Positions 1,449 to 8,548 of a stretch of DNA of 13,770 nucleotides are shown here, one piece after another. The notes under the pieces are model-generated. The model saw nothing but the letters and a program-made list of their open reading frames with translations, did no database searches and was not told the DNA's origin. How positions within the stretch are numbered: the stretch's first letter is position 1; each line of letters starts with the position of its first letter. Source of the stretch: Nitrospirae bacterium CG2_30_53_67 (GTDB taxonomy: Bacteria > CG2-30-53-67); NCBI GenBank assembly GCA_001873285.1, contig MNYV01000136.1, forward strand, positions 1 through 13,770, given 5' to 3'. Both the position numbers and the translations under genes were made by a program.

Positions 1449-2072
1449 TTACCTCGGAGTGATGTCGGATTTTTCAGGCACCCAAGGGCCACCGGCGCTC
1501 CAGTTGAAGGGGACGGGCGCTGTCCCGGAGGCTGCTCTCAGTGGCGGGAGCAGGAAGTCCCGCAGATGCGAGAGAACGTCCAGAAGCGTGGGATAGCTGA
1601 TTATCCCGGCCTTGGGAGTGACCACGTCACCGAATCCCACATCCACCTGGATGGGTATACGGGCCTTGCCGAGAGAGGCCGTCATCGTGACGCGCTGCCC
1701 CTGATATTCCTGCGCTTCGCGGATCGGTGCAGCCTTCACGCTATGGGCGTTAAATTCCAGACCATCCGGTTCTACGTCAACGGCGCAGACGGTGCGGAAC
1801 ACTTTCACAAGCCGCTCGCTTCCGTCCTCACCATGGCCAAGAAAATCCACATCAACGGTCGGCCTATACGACTGACCTGTCCAGGCCGTGAACAGCATGG
1901 CTCCCTTGAGGATAAAGTCCCAGGCATGCTCCGATACGGACAGGCGGTAGAGAAGCCGTTCATTCGCATAGCGCGTCCAGATCAGGTTCGCGTCGTCCCC
2001 GGTTTCCCGGATGATGTTCAGCAGCCGCTGGCGAACCGAGGCCGCGAGGTTTGATGGTTTCTCCTGGGTCAT
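1449..2072 (-). CDS. abiEii: AbiEii-family nucleotidyltransferase toxin, apparently with internal deletion
   Basis: AbiEii proteins are nucleotidyltransferase toxins paired with AbiEi in type IV toxin-antitoxin and phage-abortive systems. The ATG at 2072 overlaps the abiEi stop (ATGA), fixing the start and giving 207 residues. The N-terminal part is typical: TRYANERLLYRLS, then FILKGAMLFTAWTG, then PTVDVDFLG with the metal-binding D74 and D76, and IPIQVDVGFGD at 139-149. Residues 160-165 (YPTLLD) run directly into HLRDFLLPPL and FNWSAGGPW, which I know as the last 40 residues of full-length AbiEii proteins of about 300 residues. The roughly 90 residues that normally lie between them, carrying the conserved lysine and the second acidic catalytic motif, seem to be missing. 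The reading frame survived, but the toxin is probably inactive. The family-length comparison is from memory. Confidence 0.75.
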   Translation of the reverse strand: MTQEKPSNLAASVRQRLLNIIRETGDDANLIWTRYANERLLYRLSVSEHAWDFILKGAMLFTAWTGQSYRPTVDVDFLGHGEDGSERLVKVFRTVCAVDVEPDGLEFNAHSVKAAPIREAQEYQGQRVTMTASLGKARIPIQVDVGFGDVVTPKAGIISYPTLLDVLSHLRDFLLPPLRAASGTAPVPFNWSAGGPWVPEKSDITPR

Positions 2073-2677
2073 ACGATCGCTTCCATGTAGGGGCGCATGG
2101 TCTTTGTTACACGGCAGATTTTCGCATACCGCCAAAGTTCATCGGTTGTGCATTTGCTCCCGCGAATCACCTCGCGGAGCGCCTCGAGTGCAACATCCAG
2201 CCCGATCTTGTTCCTGTACTTGAAACAATCTGCCACCGTCTTGGCCGGGTTATAGATTCTCACCTTCACGCCTTCAATGACGTGTTCGTTGATGCCCTCC
2301 ATGAGGGCCTTGCCGGAGAAGCGCAGAATCCGCATCTTGGGGGAGTTGGCCCGCGGGCTGGCGGCCCTGCGGTCGATGGCTATCCACACTTCGCGGGGTG
2401 CCTGCGTCCCGATCTCGTGAAAGCGAAGCGCGGAGAGCAGGCACACCACGCCCTTGGGGACCGCCTTCCCTGCCTGTGCCAGTCCATGGTGAGCAGTGAT
2501 ATCGGTATTCGGCAGGCTATACAGCCCCCGTCCGACACGCACGAGTTTCCCCTCTGCGCTCAGTTGTCTGAGGTATTCGTGGTGAATCCCCTTGGAACGC
2601 ACCTCTCCGGTCGTGACGATTCCTGAATTGTGAGCGAGTTCCAGTATGCGTTTTATCTTTTCGTGGCGATTTCTCAT
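2069..2677 (-). CDS. abiEi: AbiEi-family antitoxin / transcriptional regulator
   Basis: This 202-residue protein has the AbiEi layout. An N-terminal winged helix spans roughly residues 5-55 (IKRILELAHNSGIVTTGEV, then YLRQLSAEGKLVRVGRGLYSL). A C-terminal domain follows with CLLSALRFHEIGTQ and the YNPAKTVADCFKYRNKIG motif. AbiEi antitoxins repress their own operon through the winged helix and neutralise AbiEii without direct binding. Two starts are possible, 2695 and 2677. I chose 2677 because the -10 box of a consensus promoter lies between them, so 2695 would not be on the transcript. The gene overlaps abiEii by four bases (ATGA). It looks intact while its partner does not. Confidence 0.85.
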   Translation of the reverse strand: MRNRHEKIKRILELAHNSGIVTTGEVRSKGIHHEYLRQLSAEGKLVRVGRGLYSLPNTDITAHHGLAQAGKAVPKGVVCLLSALRFHEIGTQAPREVWIAIDRRAASPRANSPKMRILRFSGKALMEGINEHVIEGVKVRIYNPAKTVADCFKYRNKIGLDVALEALREVIRGSKCTTDELWRYAKICRVTKTMRPYMEAIV

Positions 2678-2684
2678 GCGCCAA

Positions 2685-2712
2685 ATTATAGACATTTATG
2701 AATATCTGTCAA
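2685..2712 (-). promoter_or_regulatory. consensus promoter of abiEi-abiEii, predicting a leaderless transcript
   Basis: On the minus strand, TTGACA (2712-2707) and TATAAT (2690-2685) are both perfect consensus and are spaced by 16 bases. The expected start site, about 7 bases after the -10 box, falls at or next to the ATG at 2677, so the mRNA would have almost no 5' leader. A GACA/TGTC inverted repeat with a 12-base gap (2710-2707 and 2694-2691) sits between the two hexamers and could be an AbiEi operator. Confidence 0.6.
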
Positions 2713-2823
2713 GAGTTTTGCAAGTAACGGGGAGTCGGTCCTGATACCCCGACCTGCGGGCAGGCATGAAGGATCGGAGGATTCATGGCGAGAATCCGTT
2801 CTGAGGAGGCCAGTGGGTTTATT

Positions 2824-3246
2824 TCATTTAATATCCGCAACCCAGACCACGTGTTTCCTGAACGGACCGCTCTTTAGGACGTCATAGAGCTTGCGGTCTG
2901 CCGTTACCATCCTCCCTTTAAGAAGGGCTGCAAGCGCAATGTACAGGCAGTCATAGATGCTCTTTCCTGTCCTGCTGGCAATCGCAAAAGCGGAATCCGG
3001 AAATGATATAAACGGATGACGTTGTATGGGGTATTGGCGCAGGGCATCCCTTACGTCGCTTCCCTCCTGGGGGCTGACGGCGCCGCGCCGGATCCACTTG
3101 CAGATGATGCTGTCCATCTCCAGCAGAAGGAAATCCGGCGCGTGGAGTTGGTTGTTCTTGTCTAAGACTGAAAGAGCGGCTTCGCTGTGCTCCTCCTCAA
3201 CGAACCATTTTGCGGCCACACTTGCATCAATGATGAATAGACTCAA
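2824..3246 (-). CDS. vapC: VapC-like PIN-domain ribonuclease toxin
   Basis: The 140-residue protein is a complete PIN domain. Its four acidic active-site residues are visible: D7 in FIIDASVAAKWF, E43 in LLLEMDSI, D99 in SIYDCLYIALA and D117 in VTADRKLYD. VapC toxins are Mg-dependent RNases that cut tRNA or rRNA and are held inactive by the co-transcribed VapB. The start is a TTG at 3246 that overlaps the stop of the antitoxin remnant (TTGA), the usual vapB-vapC coupling. Only about 23 codons of that antitoxin survive, so this looks like an orphan toxin. Expression is uncertain because the consensus promoter just upstream points the other way, towards chrB. Confidence 0.85.
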   Translation of the reverse strand: MSLFIIDASVAAKWFVEEEHSEAALSVLDKNNQLHAPDFLLLEMDSIICKWIRRGAVSPQEGSDVRDALRQYPIQRHPFISFPDSAFAIASRTGKSIYDCLYIALAALLKGRMVTADRKLYDVLKSGPFRKHVVWVADIK

Positions 3247-3330: not shown

Positions 3331-3363
3331 TTGACAGATGATTCAATTGTTACTATAATTATC
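3331..3363 (+). promoter_or_regulatory. consensus sigma70 promoter of the chrB operon with a possible overlapping operator
   Basis: TTGACA (3331-3336) and TATAAT (3354-3359) are both perfect and are spaced by 17 bases. This predicts a start site near 3366 and a leader of about 20 bases before the AGGA ribosome site at 3377-3380. An imperfect inverted repeat, GATGATT at 3337-3343 and AATTATC at 3357-3363, brackets the spacer and -10 box. A promoter this strong ahead of a metal-resistance operon would be expected to be repressed, and ChrB is the obvious candidate. The operator is inference. Confidence 0.65.
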
Positions 3364-3386
3364 TAACAGTTGGTATAGGAATCATA

Positions 3387-4358
3387 ATGGAAAAAGCAAC
3401 CGAGACCCCCTGGATCCTGCTGATCCACCAGATTCCACCCAAGCCGGATTATTTCCGTGTCAAGATCTGGCGAAGACTCCGGCAGGTTGGAGCCGTGGCG
3501 GTCAAACAGTCGGTCTACGTACTCCCCAGAACCGACCAAACCTTTGAGGACCTGAGCTGGATTCTCAAGGAAATTATTGAGGGCGGCGGGGAGGCGTTTC
3601 TGTCGGAAGCGGTTTTTCTGGAGGGGATCTCAGACGATCAAATCAAGGAAATATTCCGGGCGGCCAGGAACGAGGACTACAAAAAGATAGTCGAAGACGC
3701 CCGGTCGTTAACCCGTGTCCTCTCCAAGGGATCATCCGCGGCCGGAGAGAGTGTCTCCAAGACCAGGGCGCAATTTTCACGGCTGAAGAAAAGATTTGAA
3801 GAGGTCTCTGCCATAGATTTTTTTTCTACTTCCGGACGTGCTGCGGCCGAGGGCGCCCTGGCCGATGCCGCGTCCAGGCTCATGACGGGGGACCGGGAGC
3901 TCCCTGCGCCGGCCATGTCGATTGCGGACATGACCGGCCGAACCTGGGTCACTCGTGAAGGTATCTTTGTGGACAGAGCGGCTTGTGCCTGGCTGATCCG
4001 GCGATTTATTCATCGTGATGCCCGGTTCAAATTTGTGGCGGGCAAAACCTACCAACCAAAGTCCGATGAGATCCGGTTCGATATGTTCGACGCGGAATTT
4101 ACTCATGTGGGAGATCGGTGCACCTTTGAGGTGATGATTGAACGCTTCGGCTTGGACGACCCATCCGTTTTACAATTGGCGGAGATCGTCCACGATATGG
4201 ATTTAAAGGATCATAAATTTGAAAGACCCGAGGCCTACGGTGTTCGCATCCTTTTTCAGGGGATGGCTGCGGCACGGGCCACGGATGAGGAACGCCTGGA
4301 ACGAGGATTGGTTATCTTCGATGAATTGTACCAGTACTTTGCGAAGAACCTTGGATGA
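3387..4358 (+). CDS. chrB: ChrB, chromate-resistance sensor/regulator
   Basis: This 323-residue protein carries both halves of full-length ChrB. Residues 9-85 are the N-terminal ChrB domain (WILLIHQIPPKPDYFRVKIW, then GAVAVKQSVYVLP). Residues 186-320 are the C-terminal domain (TWVTREGIFVDRAACAWLIR, RFIH, then THVGDRCTFEV). ChrB is known as a chromate-responsive regulator needed for induction of chromate efflux. The middle (about 86-185) is helical and charged, with a likely linker. C200, H240 and C245 recur at C16, H59 and C64 of the stand-alone homologue downstream and are good candidates for an oxyanion or metal site (inference). It is first in a four-gene operon and has a clear AGGA site six bases before its ATG. 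Confidence 0.9.
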   Translation: MEKATETPWILLIHQIPPKPDYFRVKIWRRLRQVGAVAVKQSVYVLPRTDQTFEDLSWILKEIIEGGGEAFLSEAVFLEGISDDQIKEIFRAARNEDYKKIVEDARSLTRVLSKGSSAAGESVSKTRAQFSRLKKRFEEVSAIDFFSTSGRAAAEGALADAASRLMTGDRELPAPAMSIADMTGRTWVTREGIFVDRAACAWLIRRFIHRDARFKFVAGKTYQPKSDEIRFDMFDAEFTHVGDRCTFEVMIERFGLDDPSVLQLAEIVHDMDLKDHKFERPEAYGVRILFQGMAAARATDEERLERGLVIFDELYQYFAKNLG

Positions 4359-4382
4359 AAACAAATCAGAAGGAGAAGAATC

Positions 4383-4661
4383 ATGCCATCCATTGAAACC
4401 CATGTACAGAAGAGCACGGAAAGAACCGGCAAGCCCTTCCGGGAGATCCACGAATGGATCGACGAGCCGAGCCACAAGGTCGAGCGCCACGATATCGGCC
4501 GCGTCCTCGAATTCGCCAAGATGTTTGAAGAGAAATACGGCGAGGAAGGCGCGAAGGAATACGTGCAACACCTCCAGGACGATCTGAAGGCCCGCTTCGG
4601 CCATCTTCTGGAGGACGTGGAGAAACTCATTACCGACAACCTGAAGTATTTCGGCTGTTGA
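4383..4661 (+). CDS. small His-rich hypothetical protein of the chr operon
   Basis: The 92-residue acidic protein has a good AAGGAG site at 4370-4375 and sits 24 bases behind chrB and 34 bases before the second ChrB-domain gene, so it belongs to the operon. Visible features are GKPFREIHEWIDEP (residues 16-29), HKVERHDIGRV (31-41) and an amphipathic helical C-terminal half, AKMFEEKYGEEGAKEYVQHL then KARFGHLLEDVE. Histidines 7, 23, 31, 36, 63 and 74 and a C-terminal cysteine could bind metal. It resembles small cytosolic families with a 'GKPF-x-x-x-H-x-W-[IL]-D-E' start (possibly DUF6915-like), but I do not know its function. No signal peptide or membrane segment is seen. Confidence 0.75.
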   Translation: MPSIETHVQKSTERTGKPFREIHEWIDEPSHKVERHDIGRVLEFAKMFEEKYGEEGAKEYVQHLQDDLKARFGHLLEDVEKLITDNLKYFGC

Positions 4662-4695
4662 TGAAGGGTGACCGTTCAAAGAAGGAGTCGAGAAG

Positions 4696-5130
4696 ATGAA
4701 ATGGATCACACGTTCCCACGTTCATGTGGACAGAGTGGCCTGCCCCTGGCTCATCAGACGTTTTATTGATTCGGAGGCGGAGTTTCTTTTTGTTCCGAAA
4801 AGTCAGGTCAAAGCCGTGGCCGAGAAGGAGGGAGCGATCCCCTTCGACTCGCCCGGGGCCGAACTCAATCATGAAGGCGATCTTTGTACCTTCGATGTGA
4901 TCATCCGGAAATACGAGCTTAAGGATAAGCCTCTGATCAGACTTGCCCGAATCGTCAATGCAGCCGACACGCGGCGTCTTGAAAAAGACCCGCTTGCCGC
5001 AGGGGTTGAGGCCATCGCCGTGGGCTATGGGTTGAGATTCCCTGATGACAAAAAGAATCTGGAACGGCAGTTCGAGGTGTATGACGCCCTTTATGCCTGG
5101 TGCTGTTTGAACGCTGCCGGAGAATCCTGA
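4696..5130 (+). CDS. stand-alone ChrB C-terminal-domain protein
   Basis: This 144-residue protein is a single ChrB C-terminal domain, homologous to residues 186-320 of the full-length ChrB upstream. It shares W-[IV]-TR, HVDR-x-AC-x-WLIRRFID and NHEGDLCTFDVII, followed by LARIVNAAD. C16, H59 and C64 align with C200, H240 and C245 of ChrB. An AAGGAG site lies at 4681-4686. Single-domain ChrB proteins are annotated as chromate-resistance proteins, but their biochemical role is unsettled. Presence of both forms in one operon points to a division of labour, for example one sensing or reducing partner and one DNA-binding regulator (inference). Confidence 0.85.
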   Translation: MKWITRSHVHVDRVACPWLIRRFIDSEAEFLFVPKSQVKAVAEKEGAIPFDSPGAELNHEGDLCTFDVIIRKYELKDKPLIRLARIVNAADTRRLEKDPLAAGVEAIAVGYGLRFPDDKKNLERQFEVYDALYAWCCLNAAGES

Positions 5131-5176
5131 CCCGGGATTGCATGAGCAGCCTCCGGCGGGAATGGAGTCAGATGCG

Positions 5177-5230
5177 ATGATGCGGAGCAAGAAGCAGGCA
5201 GGTCTCCTCTTCATTATTCTCATGGGATAG
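5177..5230 (+). CDS. possible 17-residue leader peptide ahead of the MFS gene
   Basis: A tiny frame begins at ATG-ATG (5177), has GGAG nine bases upstream and encodes a basic N-terminus followed by a hydrophobic run, GLLFIILMG. It stops four bases before the MFS start. The arrangement would suit translational coupling to the transporter. With no homologue known to me it may be chance. Confidence 0.2.
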   Translation: MMRSKKQAGLLFIILMG

Positions 5231-5234
5231 AGAT

Positions 5235-6479
5235 ATGCGGCGCAGAGAGCGTGTTTCGGATTTTCTGGGTCTCACCCGAAGCACCGTGGGTGTCCTCTTC
5301 ATGGTCATCCTCGTGGGGATGGGAGAGCGCATGGCCGAGCGCTTTCTTCCCATCTACCTCATGGCCTTGGGAGGAGGGGCTCTCTCCATCGGATTTCTCA
5401 ATGGGATGGACAACCTCCTTTCGGCGCTCTATTCCTTTCCCGGAGGGTATCTCTCCGACCGCATCGGCACGAAGAGGGCCCTGCTCGTTTTCAACATCGT
5501 GGCCATGTGCGGCTTCCTGGTGGTGATTCTGATTCCCGCATGGCAGGCTGTGCTTCTCGGGGCCGTGCTCTTTCTCTCGTGGACTTCGATCTCGCTGCCT
5601 GCGACCATGGGCCTGATCGCCAGGGTGCTCCCCATGCACAAGCGGACCATGGGGGTGACCATGCACTCTCTGGTGAGACGCTTTCCCATGGCCTTGGGAC
5701 CGATTCTCGGCGGTTTGTGCATCGGCTTCTGGGGGGAGAGAAACGGCGTGCGAGCGGCCTTTGCCGCGGCCCTGCTCCTTTCTCTGGCGGCGGTCGTGCT
5801 TCAAGAGAAGCTGATTGAAGAGGAACCGCAGGACTCCACGCGCACGAAAAACCGAGGGGAAAAGAATCCGATGAAGCTCTTCCCGCTCATGAGTCCTGCG
5901 CTCAGGCGCTTGCTGGTCTCAGACGTCCTGGTGCGCTTCTGCGAACAGATCCCCTATGCCTTTGTGGTGGTCTGGTGCATGAAGAGCATTGTCGAACCGG
6001 TCACGGCCCTTCAGTTCGGCATTCTGACGAGCATCGAGATGGCCACGGCCGTGCTTGTTTATATCCCCGTAGCCTATCTGGCCGACCGCAGCGCCAAGAA
6101 GCCTTTTGTGATCATCACCTTTGTCTTTTTCACCCTTTTCCCGCTTGTTCTTCTCTTCTGCCGGTCCTTTGAGTGGCTGGCCCTTGCCTTCATCCTAAGG
6201 GGCCTCAAGGAGTTCGGTGAACCCACTCGAAAGGCCATGATCATGGACCTGGCGCCTGAGAACTGCAAGGCGGGTATGTTCGGCCTCTATTACCTTCTCC
6301 GGGATATCTTCGTTTCCGTGGCCGCGGTCGGCGGGGCTTTTCTATGGCAGATCAGTCCGGCCGTGAATTTTTTCACGGCCTTTGCCTTCGGCGCTGCAGG
6401 AACCATTGGTTTTGCAATCTGGGGCAGGGACCTGAATACGGCCATGCCCGAAGAGAGGCTCGGCCGGCGAGCCGTTTAA
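5235..6479 (+). CDS. MFS transporter, probable efflux protein of the chr operon
   Basis: The 414-residue protein has about twelve hydrophobic segments in two halves joined by a charged central loop near residues 190-215 (EEEPQDSTRTKNRGEKN). The MFS motif A appears as GYLSDRIGTK at 71-80 and in weaker form in the second half as AYLADRSAKKP. It is the last gene of the operon, 104 bases after the ChrB-domain gene, and is followed by a terminator. No ChrA (CHR-family) transporter lies in the window, so this protein is the likely exporter for whatever ChrB senses; chromate is the first guess. The start has only a modest GGGAT purine stretch upstream. Substrate specificity cannot be read from the sequence. 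Confidence 0.85.
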   Translation: MRRRERVSDFLGLTRSTVGVLFMVILVGMGERMAERFLPIYLMALGGGALSIGFLNGMDNLLSALYSFPGGYLSDRIGTKRALLVFNIVAMCGFLVVILIPAWQAVLLGAVLFLSWTSISLPATMGLIARVLPMHKRTMGVTMHSLVRRFPMALGPILGGLCIGFWGERNGVRAAFAAALLLSLAAVVLQEKLIEEEPQDSTRTKNRGEKNPMKLFPLMSPALRRLLVSDVLVRFCEQIPYAFVVVWCMKSIVEPVTALQFGILTSIEMATAVLVYIPVAYLADRSAKKPFVIITFVFFTLFPLVLLFCRSFEWLALAFILRGLKEFGEPTRKAMIMDLAPENCKAGMFGLYYLLRDIFVSVAAVGGAFLWQISPAVNFFTAFAFGAAGTIGFAIWGRDLNTAMPEERLGRRAV

Positions 6480-6516
6480 TTTTGAGCGTGGATCCCCCGG
6501 CCGCCATACTAAATTC

Positions 6517-6546
6517 TTGACGTCCGGTTTGCTTTGGAGATATCTT
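6517..6546 (+). promoter_or_regulatory. possible promoter for a leader upstream of mqnA
   Basis: TTGACG (6517-6522) and TATCTT (6541-6546) are spaced by 18 bases. If used, transcription would start near 6553 and run through the hairpin at 6589-6619 before reaching mqnA at 6650. The -10 match is only fair, so this is tentative. Confidence 0.3.
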
Positions 6547-6588
6547 GTGCGGGACCCTGTCAGAGCGGAATGGCGGAGGATGCGCAGA

Positions 6589-6619
6589 AACGGCAAGCTG
6601 GAAATGCAGGCCGTTTTTT
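6589..6619 (+). terminator. intrinsic terminator (end of chr operon, or attenuator in the mqnA leader)
   Basis: AACGGC (6589-6594) pairs with GCCGTT (6610-6615), extended inside by CTG/CAG (6598-6600 with 6607-6609) across a three-base bulge. The stem runs straight into six T residues at 6614-6619. It lies 110 bases after the MFS stop and 30 bases before mqnA. It most simply ends the chr operon, but it would act as an attenuator if the promoter at 6517-6546 is real. Confidence 0.55.
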
Positions 6620-8002: not shown

Positions 8003-8548
8003 ATGACTAGGGTTCCGAAGAAGGTCTTTTTCACAAACGGCGTGGGCACGCATACTGAAGAGCTTCAATCCTTTGAGCTGGCGCTGCGGGATGCCGGTAT
8101 TGAAAAGTTCAACCTGGTCCAGGTCTCCAGTATCCTTCCCCCGGGCTGCAAGAGGATCTCCCGCAAGGAAGGTTTGAATCTGCTCGAGCCCGGTGAGATT
8201 GTCTATTGCGTTCTTGCGCGCTGTGCCAGCAGCGAACCCCGCCGTCTGCTGGCCGCCTCGGTAGGCTGCGCAGTCCCCATAGACAAGAGGATGTACGGCT
8301 ACCTGAGTGAATACCATGCCTTCGGGACGACCGACCATGCGGCCGGGGAGTACTCCGAAGACCTGGCCGCAGCGATGCTGGCCTCAACCCTGGGCATTGA
8401 ATTCGACGAAGAAAAGAGCTGGGATGAAAAGCGGGAGATCTGGAAGATCAGCGGGAAGATCGTCCACACCAGCAACATCACGCAGTCGGCCATTGTCAAG
8501 AAAGGGTACTACACCTCGGTGGTGGCGGCGGCGGTCTTCGTGTTCTGA
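8003..8548 (+). CDS. pdaD: pyruvoyl-dependent arginine decarboxylase
   Basis: This enzyme decarboxylates arginine to agmatine, the entry to polyamines in organisms lacking the PLP-dependent form. The 181-residue proenzyme shows the N-terminal [17 protein letters not shown], then [12 protein letters not shown], in which cleavage between S42 and S43 would release a short beta chain and leave a pyruvoyl group on the alpha chain. Further family segments are [23 protein letters not shown] and the C-terminal [21 protein letters not shown] site precedes the ATG. It has its own promoter and converges on the next gene with only 18 bases between stops. No agmatine-using gene is nearby. Confidence 0.93.

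Follow-up and report, generated by a model that had tools for sequence, protein, structure and literature searches.

As a rule, chromate resistance is identified with ChrA. The closest described relatives of the operon analyzed here are the chrBAC(E/F)-type operons (TnOtChr, pMOL28, and Stutzerimonas pPS-VIM-5), which begin with the gene of the regulator ChrB and carry a ChrB_C gene downstream; some end with a gene of the major facilitator superfamily (MFS), as on the Stutzerimonas plasmid (ChrB-ChrA-superoxide dismutase-ChrB_C-MFS). On proteobacterial plasmids, a single-domain ChrB_C protein encoded behind chrA, superoxide dismutase, or rhodanese genes is standard. We describe an operon from Nitrospirae bacterium CG2_30_53_67 that has key ChrB residues in common with these systems, whereas it lacks ChrA, superoxide dismutase, and rhodanese, includes an additional gene for a 92-residue protein (P92), and encodes an MFS protein of a subfamily other than the Stutzerimonas one. 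The analyzed stretch of DNA (the window; 13,770 nucleotides, positions 1 to 13,770 of contig MNYV01000136.1) is one contig of a 2.36-Mb draft genome that is 95% complete; the phylum is small, with 8 genomes in the searched collection.

The determinant of Arthrobacter FB24 resembles the window operon in having separate genes for the N- and C-terminal parts of ChrB and accessory genes needed for full resistance, and differs from it by the presence of ChrA and by the identity of the accessory genes, chrJ, chrK, and chrL (PMC2751784). The chrK product was considered as an MFS protein and ruled out, since it has WD40 repeats (PMC2751784). The regulator itself has been characterized. In the Ochrobactrum ChrB, repression and DNA binding depend on R18 and R23, and the response to chromate depends on R180, R187, and H229, whereas C213 is dispensable (PMC3817168). 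Reporters based on ChrB are induced by chromate but show no response to arsenate, phosphate, sulfate, molybdate, or tungstate (PMC3543429). In cells ChrB carries about one Cr(VI) per monomer, and hardly any once purified (PMC9728187).

The window operon is a transcription unit on the plus strand (3331-6619) with the following features:

3331 to 3359, plus strand: sigma-70 promoter TTGACA-17-TATAAT, 12 of 12 consensus positions, 17-bp spacer.
3344 to 3372, no strand: possible ChrB operator, a 9-bp imperfect inverted repeat CAATTGTTA-11-TAACAGTTG that spans the -10 box.
3387 to 4358, plus strand: chrB, full-length regulator of 323 aa (ChrB_N and ChrB_C; Pfam 63 and 162 bits, above the cut-off).
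4383 to 4661, plus strand: P92, 92 aa, no Pfam or NCBIfam match, predicted helical (pLDDT, the predicted local distance difference test score of the model, 73).
4696 to 5130, plus strand: single-domain ChrB_C protein, 144 aa (Pfam PF09828, 168 bits, above the cut-off).
5235 to 6479, plus strand: MFS exporter, 414 aa (Pfam MFS_1, 106 bits, above the cut-off).
6586 to 6618, plus strand: rho-independent terminator, hairpin and U-run (-14.4 kcal/mol, z -3.1, equaled by 1 of 200 shuffles).

All four reading frames are intact and are separated by 24, 34, and 104 bp, in this order. Across the window, 0.003 promoter sites matching at 12 of 12 positions are expected from composition; a second such site belongs to an abiE gene pair. 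Upstream of the sister operon (L014, see below) there is a TTGACA box with a similar stretch (ATGATnCAATTG). The terminator had been missed by a mechanical scan because of its long loop. The locus is thus a complete unit from promoter to terminator, with four genes in the order given by the original prediction.

On balance, we favor the view that this is a chr-type operon that has lost chrA and still works, providing a chromate-induced detoxification in which the MFS protein is the exporter. All its parts come from families already known, and we see in it a chr operon minus chrA, not a new system. Several features are established here: (i) the gene order, (ii) the absence of chrA, (iii) purifying selection, (iv) the recurrent linkage of ChrB_C with MFS genes, and (v) the preservation of the ChrB residues tested elsewhere. 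That ChrB binds DNA, that it is specific for chromate, and which residues it uses were established by others in a ChrB homolog. Chromate as the ligand in this species, the substrate of the MFS protein, and what ChrB_C and P92 do are inferred.

No match to ChrA (PF02417) was found in the whole 95%-complete genome, whereas the same search was positive in 9 of 14 control genomes. Since both flanks of the operon lie on the contig and contain unrelated genes, chrA is not located just outside the operon either. The sister genome, the only other member of the genus in the collection, has the operon ChrB-ChrB_C-MFS in the same order, with identities of 61% for ChrB, 86% for ChrB_C, and 86-87% for MFS. 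Directly behind the sister MFS gene (L014:15283-15530) we found a chrA C-terminal remnant of about 85 residues (tblastn, 42% identity, E 1e-9), the sole trace of ChrA in that genome. The ratios of nonsynonymous to synonymous substitution rates (dN/dS) between the two species are 0.05 for ChrB_C, 0.11 for MFS, and 0.16 for ChrB; they are rough, as dS is near or above 1, yet they lie far below 1. ChrB_C and MFS are under strong purifying selection between the two species. ChrB is also the fastest-evolving protein in a pair of Magnetococcales operons (see below), so a replacement need not be invoked to explain its lower identity. The operon and its sister have different flanking genes and hence occupy different positions in the two genomes. 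The remnant and the purifying selection together indicate that the loss of chrA in this genus was probably secondary and that the remaining genes have been kept under selection.

Orthologous operons in other taxa retain chrA. Two Magnetococcales genomes (L011, L012) have the order ChrB-ChrA-P92-ChrB_C-MFS; P92, ChrB_C, and MFS are 66-67%, 73-75%, and 62% identical to the window proteins and follow the same order, whereas chrA lies between ChrB and P92, and ChrB is only about 29% identical. Two Nitratidesulfovibrio vulgaris plasmids (pDEVAL01 and pDsulf-L2-1) carry P92-rhodanese-ChrB-ChrA and a divergent MFS gene; this locus shares with the window the P92 family (52%), ChrB, and a nearby MFS gene, and differs in having ChrA, in lacking a single-domain ChrB_C, and in the subfamily of its MFS protein. 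On a Nitrospiraceae contig the order is ChrB-P92-HD-like gene-MFS, the MFS protein being of another subfamily; the gene between P92 and MFS (L013:980-1576) is HD-domain-like. P92 and MFS thus recur beside ChrB in other genomes. As for the ordered set ChrB, P92, ChrB_C, and MFS that had been proposed for a genome search, it was found in Magnetococcales, although there with chrA, and the sister operon has it without P92. The duplication of the ChrB_C domain, highlighted in the original prediction, is present and is ordinary in chr operons. The proposed cassette for sensing, processing, and export is supported as far as sensing and export without ChrA are concerned, but not as a separate system, because the sister remnant and the Magnetococcales chrA point to secondary loss. 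MFS genes are present in complete, ChrA-encoding chr operons as well, which supports the MFS protein as a component of chromate detoxification.

The linkage of ChrB_C with MFS genes extends beyond these operons. In a survey of 386 diverse genomes, complete ChrB_C domains were found in 23, and their gene neighborhoods were read. ChrB or ChrB_C has an MFS gene as a neighbor in 9 of the 23 (G000, G001, G038, G135, G144, G262, G273, G307, and G316, where G144 is counted with one short intervening frame), and ChrA adjoins ChrB-family genes in 6 (G007, G092, G179, G182, G283, and G295, with ChrA divergent in G092 and one gene between in G182). The former count is a lower bound, since only four MFS subfamily profiles were used. 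About 0.5 such cases are expected if MFS genes make up 1% of genes, and fewer than 1 at 1-2%, the share assumed by us; the binomial probability at 2% is 3e-10. In four other lineages (G135, G262, G273, and G307), a gene of the window's MFS subfamily comes immediately after a lone ChrB_C gene, with no adjacent ChrB_N or ChrA. The same pair occurs in G386 and G387, from the phylum of G273, and the two genes overlap by 4 bp in G273 and these relatives. G262 and G273 contain no ChrA anywhere in the genome. In the MFS tree, the ChrB_C-linked copies do not form one clade; the linkage requires five changes, at least two of them forced by well-supported branches, and the pairing is therefore recurrent rather than a single inherited block. 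Archaeal plasmid relatives of the MFS protein (28% identity) have no ChrB_C link in the one record opened.

These data suggest that the ChrB_C domain and an MFS protein are probably a real alternative module of chromate defense. The window operon is under purifying selection without ChrA, and the sensor domain adjoins MFS more often than ChrA across diverse lineages, so surveys that seek chrA alone would miss such loci. A literature search for ChrB "without chrA" returned nothing, and it seems that three things have not been described in the papers searched: the recurrent pairing of ChrB_C with MFS in the absence of ChrA, P92 as a family, and the DHH-like fold of ChrB_C considered below. Other neighbors of the domain were also observed. 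At L065:5162-6384, in a genome without ChrA, the neighbor of ChrB_C encodes an exporter of the TauE/SafE family and thus represents a third type of transporter partner; and in two genomes a divergent ChrB_C-family protein ends an ABC transporter operon that encodes an ATPase, a permease, and a solute-binding protein (L070:5994-9984 and L071:5595-9444).

The residues required in the characterized regulator are preserved. By alignment, R24 and R29 of the window ChrB correspond to Ochrobactrum R18 and R23, and R190, R197, and H240 correspond to R180, R187, and H229; these equivalents were placed via plasmid ChrB proteins of identical spacing and not via the Ochrobactrum sequence itself. The chromate-response triplet is also found in the single-domain ChrB_C (R6, R13, and H59, by alignment), which has the complete invariant W/T/R...DR...D...H core of PF09828 (W3, T5, R6, D12, R13, D51, and H59). 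The presence of all ChrB residues that are needed in Ochrobactrum, with the triplet repeated in ChrB_C, supports a response to chromate. The earlier description of the ligand as an oxyanion that is not established proved too open for sensing, because the characterized ChrB is chromate-specific (PMC3543429) and the key residues are kept. The Cys/His/Cys set noted previously does occur in both proteins, as C200/H240/C245 in ChrB and C16/H59/C64 in ChrB_C. With C16 in 21 and C64 in 22 of 23 single-domain proteins, it is a signature of the single-domain form; among full-length ChrB proteins it is less common, the first position being mostly Ser, and the window ChrB has both Cys residues.

The MFS protein has motif A (GGYLSDRIGTKR) and the antiporter motif C (ALGPILGG), both read off the sequence, and so shows the hallmarks of DHA1-like drug:proton antiporters. 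Its nearest solved relative is the multidrug pump NorA, a distant one. The two motifs and the kinship with NorA make outward transport likely.

We propose the following scheme. ChrB would repress its own promoter; chromate entering the cell would bind the C-terminal domain of ChrB and lift the repression, and ChrB_C, P92, and MFS would then be made. ChrB_C, having the oxyanion-binding residues without the DNA-binding half, may act as a cytosolic partner of the MFS protein that captures or chemically handles chromium species. The MFS protein would expel chromate or a chromium product, possibly a conjugate, by proton antiport.

Several observations weigh against this scheme. Known chromate efflux rests on ChrA, and the only report of an MFS transporter that we found concerns the staphylococcal EmrAB, a multidrug system with 14 transmembrane segments that affects chromate tolerance (PMC5033799). 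The window's MFS subfamily occurs in 24 of the 386 genomes and in 18 of these stands alone, away from ChrB_C; the basic substrate of the transporter may therefore not be chromium. The possible operator at 3344-3372 is laid out like the Ochrobactrum chr operator, a 12-bp imperfect repeat overlapping the -10 box (PMC3817168), but it is not significant, being equaled by 57 of 500 shuffles, and it is not kept in the sister operon (L014). P92 is absent from the sister operon and present at a second ChrB locus of that genome (L015); it is thus not essential to the core.

The mostly solitary occurrence of the MFS subfamily and its distant kinship with NorA would also fit an operon in which ChrB senses chromate and ChrB_C handles it, whereas the MFS protein exports a non-chromium solute, such as a thiol conjugate, an oxidized metabolite, or a general drug-like solute that arises during chromate stress. 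Unrelated MFS subfamilies also occur as partners of ChrB and ChrB_C, as does, in one case, a TauE-type exporter, so that no single transporter is tied to the domain. The tight ChrB_C-MFS pairing, with the 4-bp overlap described above, points instead to a shared substrate, and we regard export of another solute as rather unlikely. Sensing and export of a different oxyanion (selenite, arsenate, vanadate, or molybdate) is less probable still. The sulfite-exporter-type gene of L065 and the binding-protein ABC transporters of L070 and L071 beside ChrB_C domains suggest that the ligand may vary within the family, but the high chromate specificity of the characterized ChrB (PMC3543429), the retention of every tested response residue, and chrA in the orthologous operons argue for chromate. 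That the locus is a decaying chrBA remnant with no present function is very improbable: chrA is gone here and fragmentary in the sister genome, whose operon also lacks P92, but the four intact frames, the strong purifying selection on ChrB_C and MFS, the perfect promoter, and the good terminator all speak against decay.

For the chromate-detoxification operon favored here, the fold of ChrB_C offers a possible clue to how chromate is held. AlphaFold modeled the single-domain protein with high confidence (pLDDT 94.7), and the alignments behind the structure models (7 and 4 rows) are shallow. Foldseek with this model gave no significant match (E 0.2 or worse), and no ChrB_C relatives were found in PDB by sequence. 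On realignment (VIA-align), the best match was 6mtz, an uncharacterized H. pylori protein (Z 12.2), followed mainly by DHH phosphoesterases, several at Z 5-8: PAP phosphatase, pGpG phosphodiesterase, Cdc45, RecJ, and family II pyrophosphatases. The model resembles the N-terminal domain of the DHH superfamily (RecJ, NrnA, PAP phosphatase, and family II pyrophosphatase), whereas ChrB_C has Arg for the motif I His, has lost the first Asp, and lacks the DHH triad and the DHHA1 domain. When laid by eye, WITRSHVHVDRVAC of ChrB_C and ILITTHVNPDGDGISS of a DHH protein from the same genome align without gaps; Arg6 stands where motif I has its His, Asp12 coincides with the second Asp of the motif, and Arg13 is next. 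In the same reading, motifs II to IV would correspond, in that order, to Asp51, His59, and Asp91. The chromate-response residues would then sit at the equivalent of the DHH active site (motifs I and III). The profile-profile comparison of ChrB_C with DHH (hhalign) was not significant (probability 0.1%), so the proposed fold is based on structure, and the Pfam DHH profile did not match ChrB_C at E 10. As a DHH enzyme defined by motif, ChrB_C was rejected: HxxxDxD of motif I is absent, and motif III has a single H.

A rhodanese was suggested earlier for the C-terminus of ChrB (PMC3817168). Seven members of the ChrB_C family were compared with the Pfam Rhodanese profile, and none matched with E values as high as 10; no rhodanese was among the structural matches of the model, which excludes nothing by itself. 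The rhodanese assignment is thus without support in Pfam, and the model resembles a DHH phosphoesterase instead. A literature search for ChrB linked with DHH returned nothing. We tentatively suggest, as a possibility only, that ChrB_C is a degenerate DHH-phosphoesterase-like domain whose phosphate/metal site became a chromate site, and that ChrB_C together with its dedicated MFS protein makes up a module for chromium detoxification that is self-sufficient, independent of ChrA, and spread across several bacterial phyla. The model provides a testable fold for chromate holding, with the induction residues defined by mutagenesis placed at a phosphoesterase-like active site. If the fold is correct, it would replace the rhodanese idea and predict a bound divalent metal, which could help to explain why purified ChrB binds Cr(VI) weakly.

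P92 has no match in Pfam or NCBIfam, and neither a solved relative nor a fold match was found for its model. It had been described as His-rich; the richness is mild (6 His of 92 residues), but H7, H23, H36, and H63 are invariant across six homologs. In the survey, the family is rare, limited to this genome and its sister, and all true homologs found adjoin ChrB; a match in G043 was rejected as due to chance, as it falls within the coding frame of another, unrelated gene. P92 is perhaps an accessory protein, small and helical, that is confined to ChrB loci, and could serve as a metal-binding chaperone.

Directly upstream of the operon (1449-3246), the window contains an AbiEii/AbiEi pair (1449-2135 and 2069-2695) followed by a PIN-domain gene (2824-3246); the abiE promoter mentioned above, also matching at 12 of 12 positions, is at 2712-2685 on the minus strand. 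A gene for a pyruvoyl-dependent arginine decarboxylase is located at 8003-8548 (above the NCBIfam cut-off), and near the contig end (13484-13512) there is a 29-nt near-palindrome, AGTAAAATAGGGACAGCGCCCATTTTACT, perhaps an element of the REP type.

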